Shown: in pieces, positions 5,877-16,243 of the stretch
Numbering within the stretch: position 1 is the stretch's first letter
Layout of the letters: each line of letters opens with the position of its first letter
Assembly (NCBI GenBank): GCA_020072845.1
Contig: JAIQGF010000011.1
Span: 248,001-312,000, forward strand
Source: Terriglobia bacterium
Lineage (GTDB): Bacteria > Acidobacteriota > Terriglobia > Terriglobales > Acidobacteriaceae
Direction: 5' to 3'
DNA length: 64,000 bases
Made by a program: the position numbers and the translations under genes
The notes under the pieces: model-generated
Seen by the model: the letters and a program-made list of their open reading frames with translations, nothing else
What the model was told of the DNA's origin: nothing
The model's database searches: none

Positions 5877-10079
<4,203 letters not shown>

Positions 10080-10082
10080 TTG

Positions 10083-10112
10083 TTAGTTCTGAGTTGTTAG
10101 TTGTCAGTTGTG
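10083..10112 (+). repeat. Heptamer array after rpoC
   Basis: Four copies of a 7-base unit (AGTTGTT/C/G) lie between the rpoC stop codon and its terminator. Confidence 0.7.
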
Positions 10113-10144
10113 AATCGCGGGGCCGAAAGGCCCCGCGATTTTTT
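10113..10144 (+). terminator. Rho-independent terminator of the rpl-rpo operon
   Basis: AATCGCGGGGCC (10113-10124) pairs perfectly with GGCCCCGCGATT (10129-10140) around a GAAA tetraloop and is followed by TTTT. It lies 34 bases after the rpoC stop codon and separates the operon from the accessory island. Confidence 0.92.
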
Positions 10145-10227
10145 GCTTGTTACCGATAGACTCGCTCCGTACGGTTTGGGTACCAGGCCCAGGCTAGATT
10201 CAGAGTTTCCCCTAGCATTGTTAGTCA

Positions 10228-10256
10228 TTGACACTACTTGAAATGCACACTAGTAT
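10228..10256 (+). promoter_or_regulatory. Sigma70-type promoter of the QueC-like island
   Basis: TTGACA at 10228-10233 and TAGTAT at 10251-10256 are separated by exactly 17 bases, a near-consensus housekeeping promoter. The predicted start is near 10263, giving a leader of about 130 bases before the first gene. The rest of the 10145-10395 gap shows no other gene or strong structure. Confidence 0.7.
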
Positions 10257-10395
10257 CCTCTCGCTTCCCCATCTCGGCGCATATCTAGTTTGTGATTGAC
10301 GCAATTGCAGGTGGCACGTTAACCGTTTCTCGAGTTGTTCCTAGTTTTCGAGCAACAGAGTCGATGTGTGCGGAGCTACTCACAACCCACAAACT

Positions 10396-11223
10396 ATGAA
10401 TAGAAGCCGAAATCGCAGGGGAGGTGTCGTTGACTCTTTACCACTCTGTCTGGTGCTCTTCGGCTTGATCGGGCCAATCAGCCAAACCTGGCCGCACTTT
10501 GTTTCGCGAGTCAGCGGTGTTCTCAAAAGGCTCGGGGAGATCTTACTTTTTTTGGCAGCTCACTCTGCACACGTGGCAAAGTGGCTATTGCCTCATGAGC
10601 ACGGTTCGCTTCCCGCTTATTTTTCCATGTACGCGGTAATCCTGGTGGTTGTTTACGCGGCCTACAGAGGGAGAAAGGATGCTACCGTGATTTCGCCTTT
10701 CTGCCTTCCGGCGGATGCGAAGCTCCCCTTCAGTGAGCACACTGTGGCGAACGCACTGCGGGACGCGCTACTGGAAATCCAACGAGAAGCGGAGCATGGC
10801 ATTCGGGGCAAATCGACAAGTTTGGTGGGGCTTGGGTCTTCGGAGTTAAAAGAGCTCAAGCTGCCGGATCTGAAGGATTTTAGCGTTCAGGCTCGTTTTT
10901 CAGTCGAAGTACAGGGATTCTCGCTTGACGCTGCGATTTCGGTTGCCCGGAAGTTGTTCGGCAAGGAGCGAATCATCTCTGGCGATGTGGTAACCGACGG
11001 CACTATCTTTTTCTTGTTGGTACGATCGCAAGAAATGGGTCCCTGGAAGATAGGTCCACAACCAGCAACTATGGTTGGTCTGGACTCGGCAGTTCGCGAA
11101 TTAGGTCTTAAAGTAGTTGAAGCGTCGCACCCCACACTTCTGGCAGCCCATGAAATCGCAATCGGCAAGTACGAACAAGCCCTAGATCGTCTGACGAAGT
11201 TGGTGCAGAATGCGCGAGAATAG
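10396..11223 (+). CDS. Two-TM membrane protein of the QueC-like island, unknown function
   Basis: 275 residues from ATG 10396. An in-frame GTG at 10366 would add ten residues, and neither start has a clear ribosome binding site. There are two hydrophobic segments: residues about 15-29 (LPLCLVLFGLIGPIS) and about 78-95 (SMYAVILVVVYAA). A soluble C-terminal part of about 175 residues follows and contains no P-loop, nuclease or protease motif that I recognise. I do not recognise the family. It is the first gene of a four-gene unit and overlaps the TPR gene by 14 bases, so the two are probably co-translated. It occupies the place that the ATPase QatA holds in Qat systems but lacks a Walker motif. 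Base composition is visibly less GC-rich than in rpoC, which suggests transfer. Confidence 0.75.
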   Translation: MNRSRNRRGGVVDSLPLCLVLFGLIGPISQTWPHFVSRVSGVLKRLGEILLFLAAHSAHVAKWLLPHEHGSLPAYFSMYAVILVVVYAAYRGRKDATVISPFCLPADAKLPFSEHTVANALRDALLEIQREAEHGIRGKSTSLVGLGSSELKELKLPDLKDFSVQARFSVEVQGFSLDAAISVARKLFGKERIISGDVVTDGTIFFLLVRSQEMGPWKIGPQPATMVGLDSAVRELGLKVVEASHPTLLAAHEIAIGKYEQALDRLTKLVQNARE

Positions 11224-11845
11224 GAAGATTGACATCCAGCTATATGAATTGGCGGCGGTGCTTCGTGCCGACGAGTTGATCAAGGAAAATAAGATAGAGG
11301 AATCATTAAACCTCGTGAAGAGAGCATTCGACCTCGTCCCGCGAGGTGGGTTTGTGGCTTACAACCTGGGTGTAACTTTTCAACAAAACCGTAAGTTCAC
11401 TGAAGCCATTTCTGCTTACCGCGAAGCCCTGCGGGCTAAGCCGAACTTCTACGAGGCCCTTGTGAACCTTGGCAATGCGCTGACTGAACATGGGGAACCG
11501 GAGGAAGCTATCGGGATCTATAAAAAAGCCCGCCAACTGGACGATAAGGACGCAGATCTCCCATACAACATGGGCATTGCGCATGAGGATACGGGCCAAA
11601 TTGATGCCGCCCTTCGGGACTACCAAGAGGCTGTGCGTCTCAACTATAAGCATATTCTCGCACTGTTCAATCTCGCCCGACTGTATATACAAAAGGGCGA
11701 GTACAGGAACGCCGTCGACACCTTGGAAAAAGCACACGGCAGCGATTCAAACAATGAGGAGGTCAGAGGCCTCCTTAATGCTGCACGCGGACTACTAGAG
11801 GAGCAAGAGAAGGCCGAGCAACAAAGCAAGTCCAAACTGGATTAG
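11210..11845 (+). CDS. Tetratricopeptide-repeat protein of the QueC-like island
   Basis: 211 residues. At least four TPR units fill residues about 48-183. Examples are AYNLGVTFQQNRKFTEAIS, ALVNLGNALTEHGEPEEAI, LPYNMGIAHEDTGQIDAAL and ALFNLARLYIQKGEYRNAV. A charged Gln/Lys tail closes the protein. There is no signal peptide, so it is a cytoplasmic scaffold or peptide-binding adaptor. ATG 11210 lies inside the end of the upstream membrane-protein gene, which points to translational coupling. The next gene starts 25 bases downstream. In this setting it probably tethers or senses partners in the island, which is inference from context. Confidence 0.85.
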   Translation: MRENRKIDIQLYELAAVLRADELIKENKIEESLNLVKRAFDLVPRGGFVAYNLGVTFQQNRKFTEAISAYREALRAKPNFYEALVNLGNALTEHGEPEEAIGIYKKARQLDDKDADLPYNMGIAHEDTGQIDAALRDYQEAVRLNYKHILALFNLARLYIQKGEYRNAVDTLEKAHGSDSNNEEVRGLLNAARGLLEEQEKAEQQSKSKLD

Positions 11846-11870
11846 TTCATGCAACGCGAGGTGTCATCGC

Positions 11871-12647
11871 ATGGGCAGCCAAAGCGTAACCGATTTTTCA
11901 GCTGCGAAAACAAAGCGTATCCGGGCAAGGATTTATGAATATAACCCGAGAAGCCCAGACGCCGACCGTCAGGCTTGGGACACCGGGGCCGATCTAATTG
12001 GAACCTTTAGCACAAGTAGTCCCTACGCAAAGGCCCTGGCAGGCGCAAGCGTTAGAACTGCCTACGAACTGCTCTTGACCCTGGCAGAAGACCTGCAAAG
12101 GAGTAGGAACGCTCAGGATGTATTTACTAAGCACGGAATCTCCCCGGACGTGCAAAGGCCCTATGGCGCGTTGGCGGCAAAGGTCAGCCAGTCGTTGGAC
12201 GAAAACCTTGCTGCAGGCTCCAAGGCGACCGATGCAGCCCCAGCTGCAAATGATGCACTTCGCCGAACCCTGTTGACCGTAATCTCGGAAGGCCTCCCAA
12301 GGGGGAGGGCCGCGGCCGATGCGTCGGCGGAAGAGATCCGCGAGGCTTTCCGGAGCGCCGGAAAGAGCAGGACCGCAGCTGTATTCTTGCAGAACGTGAT
12401 CAGTTCCCTGGAAAGAGGGACCCTTGACGGGGCACGTGGTAAGGCTTCACCGGCAAAGGTGGAGCAGGTTGTCAAGAAAATTGACAGCGGAGTGGCGAGG
12501 GCGGTCGGTGAAGTATTTGTGAAATCAGCGGAAGCAGCGGGGACTGACGCAAAGGACATTCTGAAGGCGTTCAAGCGAGGCGGGCATAAATGGAAAGAGA
12601 TGCAAAGGGACGTTGTTGAGAAACTTGAGCAGGGGAGACCGTCCTAA
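11871..12647 (+). CDS. Unknown protein with Met-Gly-Ser start, QatB-position partner of the QueC-like enzyme
   Basis: 258 residues, mostly helical and rich in Ala, Lys and Glu, with no TM segment and no motif I can assign. ATG 11871 is the first possible start and has GAGGTG at 11858-11863, seven bases upstream. The protein begins Met-Gly-Ser, so a free N-terminal glycine would be exposed after Met removal. It lies directly upstream of the QueC/QatC-like gene, the position of QatB in Qat defence loci, but I see no convincing similarity to QatB. The C-terminal third (VKKIDSGVARAVGEVF, then DAKDILKAFKRGGHKWKE) looks amphipathic. Function unknown. The gene order and the glycine start make it a candidate substrate of the next enzyme. 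Confidence 0.78.
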   Translation: MGSQSVTDFSAAKTKRIRARIYEYNPRSPDADRQAWDTGADLIGTFSTSSPYAKALAGASVRTAYELLLTLAEDLQRSRNAQDVFTKHGISPDVQRPYGALAAKVSQSLDENLAAGSKATDAAPAANDALRRTLLTVISEGLPRGRAAADASAEEIREAFRSAGKSRTAAVFLQNVISSLERGTLDGARGKASPAKVEQVVKKIDSGVARAVGEVFVKSAEAAGTDAKDILKAFKRGGHKWKEMQRDVVEKLEQGRPS

Positions 12648-12712
12648 GCATTGCGCTGCGTCAAACGCAGTGTGAACAGGTAGAATAGGGGGATCGTGGG
12701 GCAAGCTTTCCA

Positions 12713-14131
12713 ATGAAGGCCAATATTATCTGTGGCTACGGCGCAAGTGAGATCCGCCGACAGAAAGACGGCGAGGGAACCCTGTTGCTGTCATCTGATC
12801 GCCAGTCCGGGAACGTGCTCCTGGATGTGGACGGGATTTCGCGGGAGTTGAGCAGCGAATTCGATCCGGTCAGTCGAGATCTCTGCGAGATCGCTGCTTA
12901 CGTGTATCTAGCTGACAAAGCCATTCCCCGTGGGCGCCACGAGAACTGGATCCGGAACCTATCGTTCGTCGTGGCCGTGCGTGATTGTGACCGTTGGGAG
13001 GAGGTTAAGCCCATCCTCACCAATGCTGTGGGGTTTCTTTCCGGCGACAACGTTGAATTTCGCTTCGTACGGAAGAAAGGTGAGAGCGAAACCCGGCCTG
13101 TCGTTGATCAGCATCCCGCATCGCCCCGCGCCGATTCGGATTGTGTGAGCCTGTTTTCAGGTGGACTGGATTCCCTGGCAGGCGCTGTCTACTTAATTCA
13201 GAACGGTCGGCGTCCGCTGTTCGCCAGTCATCACGCCAGCCCTCAGCTCAAGGTTCTTCAGAACAAGTTGATGCAAGCGGTAGGACGAGAATTCGACCGA
13301 TCGTTCGAACATCTCAAGTACCGCGTAACCTCTCACAAGACGTCAACGAGCCCTCCTTATAAACGCAAAGAGAGCTCGCATCGCGCAAGGTCCTTCATGT
13401 TCTTGAGCTTCGCCGCCGCTGCCGCCGCGGTGCGTGGTCTTTCAGATATTTACATCTGCGAGAACGGCGTGATGTCGCTGAACGTCCCGATATCTGAGGC
13501 GCGGAAGGGCAGCCGCTCGACTCGCCACGCCCATCCGCTGTTCTTGCGGTATTTCAACGAACTGATCAGTGCGCTCTATGGACGTAAGTTTTCTGTTCGC
13601 AATTCGTTTGCGTTTTGGACCAAGAGTGAAGAATGCAAGCTTCTCCGAAGCACGAAGCTTTTGCCGCAGATCAAGCATACCGTTACCTGCTGGGGCTACC
13701 CGAATCTGACATTGCGGTACAAGGACTCTAACCACTGTGGTTCGTGCTTGCCCTGTATAGTGCGGCGCATATCGTTGATTGCCTCGGGGCTCGAGAAGTA
13801 TGACGACCGTTACATTTTCGACATTTTCAATCCTGGAAATGAGGCAACAGAGAAGCAACTTCGAAACATTGAGGATCTGATCTTCTTTTGTAATCGCTTT
13901 GCACACTTGTCCAAGACGGAACTGCTCTACGAGTATCCGGAACTCGTGATGGTTGAAGGGGGCTTGAACGGCACTGGTGAAGACCGGATTGGAAGAATCA
14001 TCCAGGTGTACAAAGAGTTTGCTGATGAAGTCCTCTCAGCTATTGGGCACCGCAACCCTGCTATTGTGCGGAGCACGCTGGATGAGGTTGCTGTTTTGGG
14101 CCACCTTACTCCATACGCCACTTCGGTCTAA
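12713..14131 (+). CDS. QueC/QatC-like ATP-pyrophosphatase (7-cyano-7-deazaguanine synthase family)
   Basis: 472 residues, about twice the length of a biosynthetic QueC. The N-terminal extension (about 1-140) has the DLCEIAAYVYLADKAIPRG and GFLSGDNVEFRF blocks that I associate with defence-type QatC proteins. The catalytic half opens with the PP-loop SGGLDS at residues 149-154 and carries a zinc site formed by Cys326 and CGSCLPC (Cys342, 345, 348), as in QueC. The family adenylates a carboxylate or amide of a deazapurine. The length, N-terminal domain and lack of any other queuosine gene nearby argue for a specialised, probably anti-phage role rather than tRNA modification. It is the last intact gene of the island. 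Confidence 0.85.
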   Translation: MKANIICGYGASEIRRQKDGEGTLLLSSDRQSGNVLLDVDGISRELSSEFDPVSRDLCEIAAYVYLADKAIPRGRHENWIRNLSFVVAVRDCDRWEEVKPILTNAVGFLSGDNVEFRFVRKKGESETRPVVDQHPASPRADSDCVSLFSGGLDSLAGAVYLIQNGRRPLFASHHASPQLKVLQNKLMQAVGREFDRSFEHLKYRVTSHKTSTSPPYKRKESSHRARSFMFLSFAAAAAAVRGLSDIYICENGVMSLNVPISEARKGSRSTRHAHPLFLRYFNELISALYGRKFSVRNSFAFWTKSEECKLLRSTKLLPQIKHTVTCWGYPNLTLRYKDSNHCGSCLPCIVRRISLIASGLEKYDDRYIFDIFNPGNEATEKQLRNIEDLIFFCNRFAHLSKTELLYEYPELVMVEGGLNGTGEDRIGRIIQVYKEFADEVLSAIGHRNPAIVRSTLDEVAVLGHLTPYATSV

Positions 14132-14139
14132 CTGCATGA

Positions 14140-14493
14140 GGAGGTCTCCAGCGCATTCCGTCGGTTACAGGGTTCATCCGAACTTCGGCCGTCGTTTTGG
14201 CGGAACTGTGGCGGGGCGCGAGCACACGTTCTGAGCGCAGAATCGTCGGAGCCCTCGAGCGCAGCCATCCGGTTCTGACCCCGACCCAGAACAACTGGAT
14301 TGAATCAGGCCGGTTGCTCGGAAAGATTCGCGCCGCTCACGGGTTGTCTCCGCATCGGCGGCGCGCTCTTCACTTCGACGTACTGATTGCCCTCACAGCG
14401 CGCTCCCACGGAGCGCGCCTGATCACCTCCAATCGCCGCGATTTCGAGCTGATCCACCGCTACAGAAGGTTCGAGCTGGAAGTATGGAGTTAG
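14140..14493 (+). pseudogene. Decapitated PIN-domain (VapC-like) toxin remnant
   Basis: The frame is open from 14140, just after a TGA. It encodes TSAVVLAELWRGA, then NNWIESGRLLGKIRA and LHFDVLIALTARSHGARLITSNRRDFEL. These are the middle and C-terminal strands of a PIN ribonuclease, with Asp in HFDVLIA and Asp in NRRDFEL. The usual N-terminal strand with the first catalytic Asp (xLLDTN or similar) is absent, and the first start-like codon, TTG 14197, is internal to the fold. No antitoxin gene is visible. It starts within ten bases of the QueC-like stop codon, so the deletion may be tied to insertion of the island. Confidence 0.75.
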
Positions 14494-14569
14494 CGGAAAC
14501 GGCTCATGAGCAGACTGTTCCGAAACTCGTGCCGTCCCTAACGGGACTCGGTCTTCTTTTGCCATTTGA

Positions 14570-14765
14570 CCCGGCACTTACGTGCCGGGCTAGGTTCTGC
14601 CGCCCCGGCGGGGCTGTGCTCGTGCCGTCCCTGCGGAGTCTGCGTCATAGCCGTGCCGCGCCGCTGGCGCTCACGCTTTTTGGTCCACTTTACCCAGCGC
14701 TGCCGCGCTGGGCTAACGAATTTCGCCGCTCCGCGGCTGGTTTCGGTTCGCTTTTGGACCACTGC
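14570..14765 (+). repeat. Composite multi-hairpin element, copy R1
   Basis: There are four hairpins in a row. H1 is CCCGGCAC..GTGCCGGG with CTAGGTTCTGC after it. H2 is CGCGCCGCTGGCGC. H3 is CCCAGCGCTGCCGCGCTGGG followed by CTAACGAA. H4 is CGCCGCTCCGCGGCTGG. The element closes with TTGGACCACTGC. The same order, including the closing dodecamer, occurs in copy R2 at 19361-19625. It is part of the gene-free stretch 14494-15292. Further GC hairpins around 14838-14880 precede the tandem repeat at 14891. Confidence 0.8.
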
Positions 14766-14890
14766 AACGGGCGAAATCGAGCTATGACACAGACACCTAC
14801 GGGACTCGGATGATTTTGTTTGGGGGAGTTCCCGGCGCTGAAGCGCCGGGCTATTTTCACCCGCCGCTACGCGGCTGAGGAGTGATGGCA

Positions 14891-15068
14891 AGAGATGAGC
14901 GATCCCCCCGAGAGTGGTCGCGACTCTACCCGGGCGAGAGATCGGCGATCCCCCGAGAGTGATCGCGACTCTACCCTGGCGAGAGATGAGCGACCCTCCG
15001 AAAGTGGTCGCGACTCTACCCGGGCGAGAGATCGGCGATCCCCCGAGAGTGGTCGCGACTCTACCCGC
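14891..15068. repeat. Four tandem copies of a 45-46 base unit
   Basis: Units begin at 14891, 14937, 14982 and 15027. Each contains AGAGTGGTCGCGACTCT-like sequence, with the self-complementary core GTCGCGAC and outer AGAGT/ACTCT arms. The copies differ by a few bases and alternate between GATGAGCGA and GATCGGCGA at their starts. There are no unique spacers, so this is not a CRISPR array. The stretch 15069-15292 after it holds no gene and only the leader of the BrkB-like gene. Confidence 0.85.
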
Positions 15069-15292
15069 ACTCGGGGGCAAAAGTGAAGTGTGGGTAATCG
15101 GGAATCAGCGTGCTGGCGCCCGCGACCGGCGCGACGCTAGGCTGAGGCGCGATCGACCATTTAGAATATGGGCGGAGAGGTGAATGCGGGGCATCCGCCC
15201 CTCTTCCTGTTTCGTGGGGTACCGAAGTAGGGTATTTCGGAAGCGGCCGAAACCTTATAAAGTAGCCGATTGTGGAATAAAGTACGCCGATT

Positions 15293-16243
15293 GTGGAGGG
15301 GGATACCGTCGGCTCCGCCATCAAAATTTCTGACCAGCCGGCGCCAGCGCGGCCTCCCGACCGCGGGCCCACGGAGCCATCTCGCGGGCTATTTGTGCTG
15401 AAGCTGTTGAAGAACGTGCGCGTCGCGCTGTGGCGTGCCTTCGTGCACGATGCCTTTGGTGTCGCCAAGGGCGGCGCCTTTTCCGCCATCCTGACGCTGT
15501 TTCCCGCGCTCATGGTGGCCGGCGCCATCATTGCCACCTTCGAGCGCCGCGCCGAGTACATACGCGAGGTCTCCGGCGCTGCCTACCAAATCCTGCCGCC
15601 CGGCGCCAGCGGCGTGGTCCGCGCCTTCTTCGAATCCACCCAGGGCAAGTCGGGCCGGGTGCTGGTGGCGGCATCCCTGATCACGCTGTGGACCGCCTCC
15701 GGGGTCATGATTTCCTGGATGGAAGGCTTCCGCAACGCTTACCAGTTCCCCAAAGTATGGGGGGTGGTGAAGGAACGGCTGATCGCCTTCGGGCTGGTCG
15801 TCATGGCGGGGATTCCGCTGACCTTTGCCACCGTGCTGGTGGCGTTCGGCAACCAGATTGAAGCGCGCTTGACCGCCGACCTGGGGTACGCATTGGGACC
15901 GTACGTGCTGCTGGTGTGGACCGCCCTGCGCTGGCTGATTGCCATCCTGACCAGCGTGGCGGTGATGCAGCTCATCTATCACAACGCGGTGCCGCGCACC
16001 CTGAGCTGGCACACGGTATTGCCGGGCGCGGGGCTGGCCACCGCCATCTGGTTTCCCGCCACCATCGCGTTTGGCTGGTATGTCCGCCACTTTGCCGCCT
16101 ACAGCCTGTTCTACGGCTCGCTGGCGGCGGCCATTGTGCTGCTGATCTGGCTGTACATCATTTCGGTGATCGTGCTGGTGGGCGCCGAGTTCAACGCGCT
16201 GCTCTATCCGCGCATGGTGGTGGCGGGGAACAAGGGGCAATAG
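15293..16243 (+). CDS. YihY/BrkB family inner-membrane protein
   Basis: 316 residues with about six hydrophobic segments spread over residues 55-300, plus the family blocks WRAFVHDAFGVAKGGAFSAI near the N-terminus and AAIVLLIWLYIISVIVLVGAEFNA near the C-terminus. YihY/BrkB proteins (once mislabelled ribonuclease BN) are integral membrane proteins of uncertain, possibly transport, function. The start is uncertain. GTG 15293 is the first option and has no good ribosome binding site, while an internal GTG near residue 33 would remove a Pro-rich leader. It stands alone on the plus strand between repeats. Confidence 0.85.
   Translation: MEGDTVGSAIKISDQPAPARPPDRGPTEPSRGLFVLKLLKNVRVALWRAFVHDAFGVAKGGAFSAILTLFPALMVAGAIIATFERRAEYIREVSGAAYQILPPGASGVVRAFFESTQGKSGRVLVAASLITLWTASGVMISWMEGFRNAYQFPKVWGVVKERLIAFGLVVMAGIPLTFATVLVAFGNQIEARLTADLGYALGPYVLLVWTALRWLIAILTSVAVMQLIYHNAVPRTLSWHTVLPGAGLATAIWFPATIAFGWYVRHFAAYSLFYGSLAAAIVLLIWLYIISVIVLVGAEFNALLYPRMVVAGNKGQ

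Follow-up and report, generated by a model that had tools for sequence, protein, structure and literature searches.

The window analyzed here is a stretch of 64,000 nucleotides from the genome of a soil-dwelling Terriglobia bacterium (contig JAIQGF010000011.1), and its subject is a row of four plus-strand genes, designated A to D, at positions 10366-14131. Genes A and B overlap by 14 bases, whereas B is separated from C by 25 bases and C from D by 65 bases. These coordinates had been described correctly in an initial annotation made from the sequence, and so had the low guanine plus cytosine (GC) content, which is 51-57% over 10001-14000 compared with 62-65% in rpoC. The last gene encodes a relative of QueC and of the defence enzyme QatC, and its relationship with the product of gene C is the main concern of this text. 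The four genes and the sites of interest in D are as follows:

Gene A, 10366-11223, plus strand, 285 amino acids
Gene B, 11210-11845, plus strand, 211 amino acids
Gene C, 11871-12647, plus strand, 258 amino acids; the product is a probable QatB-like helical protein with the N-terminus Met-Gly-Ser-Gln-Ser, encoded directly upstream of D, as QatB is relative to QatC
Gene D, 12713-14131, plus strand, 472 amino acids
SGGLDS pyrophosphate (PP) loop of D, residues 149-154, 13157-13174, plus strand
TRHAHP of D, residues 270-275, 13520-13537, plus strand, with His272 at the position of Thr280 in Pseudomonas aeruginosa QatC
Zinc site of D, Cys326/342/345/348, 13688-13756, plus strand

By sequence comparison, D is a divergent QatC and not a biosynthetic QueC. 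It was matched by the PADLOC profile of QatC (E-value 2.1e-73, 245.7 bits) and by QatC in the PDB (E-value 1.1e-45), where the solved chains 9vlk and 9zee were found. The NCBIfam profile of QatC also matched (E-value 2.3e-78), but its score of 263.9 bits lies below the cut-off of 280, which counts against the assignment. The Pfam QueC profile gave a weak match of 34.8 bits, and the QueC profile TIGR00364 reached 16.9 bits, far short of its cut-off of 150.3. In a rooted tree of 40 proteins, 37 QatCs including D were split from three QueCs with a support of 100/100; the QueC outgroup rows fill 42-43% of the alignment columns, and this tree gives D no firm place among the QatC groups. The initial proposal of a stand-alone QueC relative akin to QatC was therefore borne out by PADLOC, NCBIfam (under the cut-off), the PDB and the tree, and the comparison with biosynthetic QueC that it had called for places D with QatC. 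The PP loop and the four cysteines noted in the 472-residue product were likewise recovered in a QatC alignment of 117 rows, namely D and 116 others, of which 103 are distinct and many are near-copies. In these rows the PP-loop and cysteine columns are invariant or nearly so, the x of SGGxDS excepted. The near-invariant residues kept in D comprise SGGxDS, the four cysteines, R226, E250, G252, H274, P275, T303, and K304. When the genome contigs were scanned with D alone as the query, no relative was confirmed.

One residue of the putative substrate site departs from this pattern. Residues 270-275 of D align with Thr278-Arg279-Thr280-Thr281-His282-Pro283 of P. aeruginosa QatC (PDB sequence 9zee); the equivalent of Thr278 is kept as Thr270, and that of Thr280 is replaced by His272. 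Over the 117 rows, the second position is Thr in 112, Ser in two, Arg in two that are doubtfully aligned, and His in D; the first position varies likewise (102 Thr, 13 Ser, 2 Asp). Thr278 and Thr280 were termed invariant in P. aeruginosa QatC, and the double mutants T278A/T280A and T278Y/T280D abolish defence (PMC13279940). Since His272 stands in place of a threonine called invariant, and since the double mutants are inactive in defence, the substrate or the activity of D may differ from that of other QatCs, which is a point against the QatBC reading given below.

Besides D, TRHAHP was found solely in two rhizobial plasmid loci among the QatCs examined, L182 and L183, which are arranged as CHAT-QatB-QatC-ASCH. 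A Cys-Trp pair at the first zinc cysteine is common to D and both of these rhizobial QatCs. A second tree was built without six of the first 40 rows, which were outgroup or long-branch sequences; in it, D and the two rhizobial QatCs formed one branch with a support of 94/88. With a rhizobial TRHAHP QatC as the query against 396 Acidobacteriota genomes, D was the best match, at 83.9 bits compared with at most 60.2 bits for the other 11 matches. The branch is suggestive, not firm. Forcing D into the group of QatCs whose partner starts with MGH gave a worse tree that was not rejected (p-AU of the approximately unbiased test, 0.052), and forcing it into the QatABCD group gave a p-AU of 0.102. Of 68 further viral loci, 62 gave a motif and none was TRHAHP; three had no QatC-like frame and three no motif, and one of the motifs was doubtful.

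QatB has been described as helical, with a flexible tail that begins MGTS and whose glycine is required for defence (PMC13279940). The product of C is probably a distant QatB-type partner, linked to QatB through the MGH family, as profile comparison and structure models suggest. A profile was built from 18 partners of two-gene QatBC loci of the MGH type, with C excluded. C scored 43.8 against it (probability 84%, E-value 7.5e-6), whereas none of 200 shuffled versions of C exceeded 27.6 and the top unrelated protein among 430 controls reached 23.9. The controls also included eight MGH-type proteins, one copy of C, and partners of the canonical or CHAT type (some in duplicate), all of which were set apart by eye. 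The next scores after C belonged to three different canonical QatBs (32.7, 28.1, and 26.3) and one CHAT-type partner (24.6). A predicted fold in turn points from the MGH family to QatB. In a fold search, the AlphaFold structure predicted for an MGH partner (pLDDT, the predicted local distance difference test, 85.9) matched the QatB chains of the PDB, 9y02_A with a probability of 0.91 (TM-scores 0.44/0.53) and 9y01_A with 0.72, and the other 48 among the best 50 of 552 matches had probabilities of at most 0.23. The model of C itself is all-helical, with a mean pLDDT of 69 and values below 50 for the first nine residues.

Several results weigh against a QatB identity of C. C was not matched by the NCBIfam and PADLOC QatB profiles up to an E-value of 1, and its comparison with canonical QatB profiles by hhalign was not significant, the score of 12.2 being lower than the 17.8 reached by shuffles. 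Other canonical QatBs scored low on the 18-partner profile (L130 22.6, L184 20.2, L010 17.1, L186 15.0, L015 13.2, and L181 12.2), as did the partner of L182 (16.5) and the haloarchaeal partners, and one shuffle of C, at 27.6, exceeded the third-best canonical QatB, at 26.3. The E-values of the fold matches to 9y01_A and 9y02_A are weak (0.47 and 0.58), no QatB was among the best 50 of 243 matches in the fold search with the model of C, and C begins with MGSQ instead of MGTS. No entry of the family libraries names C (Pfam, PADLOC, and NCBIfam; PHROGs up to 0.1), C had no match in plasmids up to an E-value of 1, and a PDB profile search with the MGH partner family gave an unconvincing best E-value of 0.084. 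The initial annotation had held that the partners of D fit no known system. With a probable QatB-type protein that starts with Met-Gly encoded just before D, the partner set is not wholly alien.

The other QatC loci surveyed are not a random sample: they were selected because they resembled D or fitted patterns, they overlap in part and contain near-copies, and several of the contigs end beside QatC. The relatives of D taken were the 80 best of 162 from viral contigs and 20 from genomes. A frame of the Met-Gly type lies just upstream of 87 of 99 QatCs (86 MGH and one MGN), as found by a script that asked only for MGH, MGS, MGT or MGN starts. The 12 misses include contig ends, and L067, L114, and L117 do have MGH partners. 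Many viral and genomic contigs (L019-L098, L099-L117, and L210-L275) carry the pair of an MGH partner and a long QatC. These QatCs are mostly about 550-800 residues long with a C-terminal extension, and their motif is mostly ATRTTHP or ASRTTHP. Neither QatA nor QatD was matched among 7269 open reading frames (ORFs) of L019-L118 (phmmer, E-value 1e-4, with three reference QatAs and three reference QatDs).

Different additional modules were seen elsewhere. In a Leptospira plasmid (L011:5051-7695), a partner starting with MGHERLG precedes a QatC that bears a DpnII/MboI-like nuclease domain at its C-terminus. The rhizobial plasmids (L182:2019-7631 and L183:1911-7664) carry a row of a CHAT protein, an MGS-starting partner, the TRHAHP QatC and an ASCH protein. 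Haloarchaeal loci have two small frames before QatC, and QatC is followed by a gene for a helix-turn-helix (HTH)-peptidase (IrrE/RmrA/CapP-like) in L136:5028-7700 and L206:4288-7432 and, by eye, in L209. The frame before QatC has no Met-Gly start in L136, L206, and L208, which argues against a universal glycine rule and against the reading of C given above. Relatives of qatA and qatD both flank QatC in seven of ten Acidobacteriota loci read and also in L015. Eight other plasmid loci are canonical by annotation, one of them with a transposase between the NTPase gene and the rest, and among the phages searched QatC turned up in just two records, both from Listeria phages. Since qatA was found near only 34.3% of one published QatC cluster (PMC13329287), loci that lack QatA are probably not rare. 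The occurrence of QatBC pairs with several different extra modules may partly explain that figure. Descriptions of the MGH two-gene and CHAT-ASCH variants were not found in the literature searched, a search to which preprints and most subscription papers were outside the scope.

The four genes occupy an islet. Its limits were drawn from blastn alignments in which the first 20 kb of the window served as the query against sequence from six relatives. The features outside A to D are as follows:

Terminator-like hairpin after rpoC, 10112-10141, plus strand, 13 pairs and a T run, at the left edge of the conserved sequence
Islet between rpoC and a yihY-like gene, 10148-15277 with approximate edges, no strand, from blastn against the relatives G001, G002, G003, G007, G014, and G017 and from the drop in GC content
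Promoter-like site TTGACA-17-TAGTAT, 10228-10256, plus strand, 10 of 12 matches
PIN/VapC-like fragment, probably a remnant, 14197-14493, plus strand, Pfam PIN 20.3 bits (cut-off 23.6) and NCBIfam VapC 18.6 bits (cut-off 80)

On the left, conservation with the relatives is lost at some point from 10054 to 10147, close to the terminator of rpoC; on the right, it is regained within 15278-15674, at the yihY-like gene or inside it. A to D are missing from this junction in all six relatives. The flanking alignments are separated by just 210-461 bases in G007, G014, and G017, by about 1.3 kb of other sequence in G003, by about 1.5 kb with an IS200-like transposase gene in G001, and by about 4.4 kb with an FRG-domain gene, a VapB-like gene and other frames in G002. 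Since the gap between rpoC and yihY differs or is nearly closed in relatives, A to D constitute, by this comparison, an accessory islet in a variable cargo site. The VapB-like gene of G002 lies at the same junction as the PIN/VapC-like fragment that follows D in the window. The near-consensus promoter claimed in the initial annotation is present as a sequence; the scan gives two such sites compared with a mean of 1.9 in shuffles, that is, no excess over chance, so the site is weak evidence. No plus-strand terminator-like site was found between B and C. Between the islet genes and yihY there are palindromic repeats at 14570-14877 and tandem copies of a 45-base repeat at 14886-15111. Apart from the PIN fragment no further gene was recognised in the islet, frames of up to 180 residues in its repeat-rich right part being outside the family-library search.

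A KAP ATPase, a TatD nuclease and a CD-NTase had been reported as missing, and this was upheld. Six references (three QatAs and three QatDs) had no match at E < 0.01 among 40 frames of at least 40 residues in 10040-15300, and neither Pfam nor PADLOC named a KAP, TatD or CD-NTase protein among five islet proteins. No further defence gene was seen by eye among the other long frames of the window, for which no profile search was made.

The description of A as a protein with two transmembrane (TM) segments and of B as a TPR protein agrees with our analysis. A has two hydrophobic stretches at about residues 18-42 and 80-100 plus a soluble domain, and B matches Pfam TPR_2 with an E-value of 2.4e-26. 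The soluble domain of A may resemble the TolB/CadC-like domain of TM-TPR regulators, a likeness drawn by eye and not backed by any search. No family-library match of A reached the cut-off (Pfam, PADLOC, and NCBIfam; PHROGs none up to 0.1), neither A nor a stretch of its relative in G347 matched in plasmids, and a PDB profile search with the A family gave one match, to a ribosomal protein (E-value 0.032), which was taken as chance. With A as the query, two of 297 genomes of the phylum matched (its own and G347), and a two-row profile matched four of 299 genomes of the class (its own, G347, G526, and G667), a draw that overlaps with the former. The G347 relative combines the TM part, the domain and TPRs in one protein of 499 residues. 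The G667 relative is similar (513 residues) with weak TPRs; it lies, by eye, near leuS- and guaA-like genes. In G526, the TM part, the domain and the TPRs lie at the C-terminal end of a 987-residue frame. By these comparisons, A and B look like two pieces of what is one TM-domain-TPR protein in other Acidobacteriota.

No QatC reference matched any of 204 frames in the 8-16 kb around the A relatives of G347, G526, and G667. Conversely, a four-member A profile, which recovered its own members and B as a control, found no relative up to an E-value of 1 among 8697 ORFs of 122 QatC loci, in which at least two places are counted twice (L013/L113 and L014/L114), and none among 4537 ORFs of 74 further loci, which include copies of earlier ones and loci without a QatC-like frame. 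Both results weigh against a role of A and B beside QatC. With B as the query, one TPR ORF was found in the 122 loci, in L011. The expectation that the four genes travel together was thus not supported; because the relatives of A are single TM-domain-TPR frames and no A relative was found in the QatC loci searched, the tie of A and B to C and D rests on this locus only. The same-strand spacing and the shared islet leave A and B as possible accessory parts.

Based on the above, the core of the locus is, somewhat more probably than otherwise, a protein-modification module of the QatB-QatC type without QatA and QatD, that is, a QatBC variant with a predicted role in defence. In other QatBC systems a complex is formed, the N-terminal glycine and the active site are needed, and QatB and QatC by themselves are reported to protect from some phages (PMC13279940). 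Cap9 modifies the N-terminal glycine of its CD-NTase (PMC11996544; PMC13279940), and the same was proposed for QatC. By analogy, we infer that C and D act as other QatBC pairs do. Removal of the start methionine would expose the N-terminal glycine of C on a flexible tail, and D would bind C and place this tail in the PP-loop active site, where it would activate a carboxylate with ATP and join it to the glycine. The group added could be 7-deazaguanine-like, or another compound in view of His272. The modified C, or the complex of C and D, would then act against phage. A, with its TM and soluble parts, and B, with its TPRs, might take the place of QatA and QatD as a sensor or effector anchored in the membrane; for this, as for any accessory role of the two with C and D, the chances appear about evenly balanced. 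Which group QatC attaches to QatB, and in what way this stops phage, are posed as questions in PMC13279940. A natural QatC with an altered substrate-site residue and a partner with another N-terminus provides a direct comparison for the question of the QatC product.

The strongest alternative, which falls a little short of an even chance and is compatible with a QatBC core, is that two unrelated modules came to lie side by side in the same cargo site and share a transcript by chance, A-B being a TM-TPR protein in two parts and C-D a QatBC system of two genes. The single-frame A relatives, around which 8-16 kb of sequence showed no QatC, the absence of A relatives from both sets of QatC loci, the varying content of the rpoC-yihY gap, and the published sufficiency of QatBC alone against some phages (PMC13279940) all accord with it. 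Against it stand the arrangement of A to D on one strand with an overlap and short gaps, the lack of a plus-strand terminator-like site between B and C, and the PIN fragment as the only other gene recognised in the islet, within the limits of the family-library search given above. The initial annotation had also suggested an undescribed QueC-dependent system; the four-gene set as one new system was not demonstrated, and a QatBC variant is the best reading of what it described. We consider it unlikely, though worth stating, that D belongs to a separate TRHAHP branch of QatC that joins a non-canonical product to the glycine of an MGS partner and works with interchangeable effectors, CHAT protease/ASCH in rhizobia and the TM-TPR pair here. 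If this were true, QatB-QatC would be a general activation core that takes nuclease, protease, ATPase or membrane modules.

Decay of the locus is improbable. His272, at a position that is Thr in 112 of the 117 QatC rows, together with the PIN remnant and the repeats downstream, could mark a dying and inactive islet, but the four frames are open, the other near-invariant residues are kept in D, and the occurrence of TRHAHP in two full-length rhizobial QatCs points to a recurring type rather than damage. Even less probable is that D, rather than modifying a protein, works as a biosynthetic QueC or modifies bases in tRNA or DNA. The Pfam QueC match would agree with such a function, and so would the state of the host genes: an insertion divides the canonical queC into two frames (L192:2343-3292, contig C11, about 13 kb before the window; a sequencing error is possible), so a stand-in enzyme could be useful. 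Its neighbours, the queD- and queE-like genes, have open frames, and queC is one frame, above the cut-off, in three genomes of the same genus. However, the tree and the low TIGR00364 score separate D from QueC, D has Thr270 and His272 where QueC has Tyr and Asp (PMC13279940), and E. coli QatC fails to restore queuosine in a queC mutant (PMC13329287). Genes for both a QueD-family protein and a QueE-like radical-SAM protein occur in this genome, which speaks for the QatBC variant preferred here: the precursor 7-carboxy-7-deazaguanine (CDG) could be made and could be present in the host.

Among the known systems, QueC shares with D the core fold family, SGGxDS and the four-cysteine zinc site; D is longer, has different pocket residues, and stands apart in the tree and far below the QueC cut-off, and a biosynthetic QueC identity was rejected on the profile score and the tree. 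Cap9 of the type IV cyclic oligonucleotide-based antiphage signaling system (CBASS) is also a QueC-family enzyme, one that modifies the N-terminal glycine of its partner (PMC11996544; PMC13279940). It differs in keeping the QueC-like Tyr/Asp pocket, and the islet holds no recognised CD-NTase; type IV CBASS was rejected, as A, B, and C match no CD-NTase in Pfam or PADLOC. The rhizobial CHAT-QatB-QatC-ASCH loci resemble the window locus in the TRHAHP and Cys-Trp of QatC, the MGS start of the partner and the tentative joint branch, whereas they carry CHAT and ASCH proteins instead of TM and TPR proteins, and at the sequence level C shows no clear similarity to their partners. The MGH two-gene loci likewise consist of a partner-QatC pair, without a QatA or QatD reference match in L019-L118, and their partner family gives the best profile match of C. 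They differ in having an MGH partner and a long QatC, compared with MGSQS and the 472-residue, TRHAHP-bearing D; membership of D in the MGH type was rejected on length and motif, the tree test being borderline. From Qat (qatABCD) the locus differs in lacking QatA (KAP) and QatD (TatD), with TM and TPR genes instead, in a C that is not matched by QatB profiles and starts with MGSQ, and in His272 of D at the Thr280 position. It resembles Qat in its QatC homologue with the PP loop and zinc site, preceded by a probable QatB-like helical partner that starts with Met-Gly.

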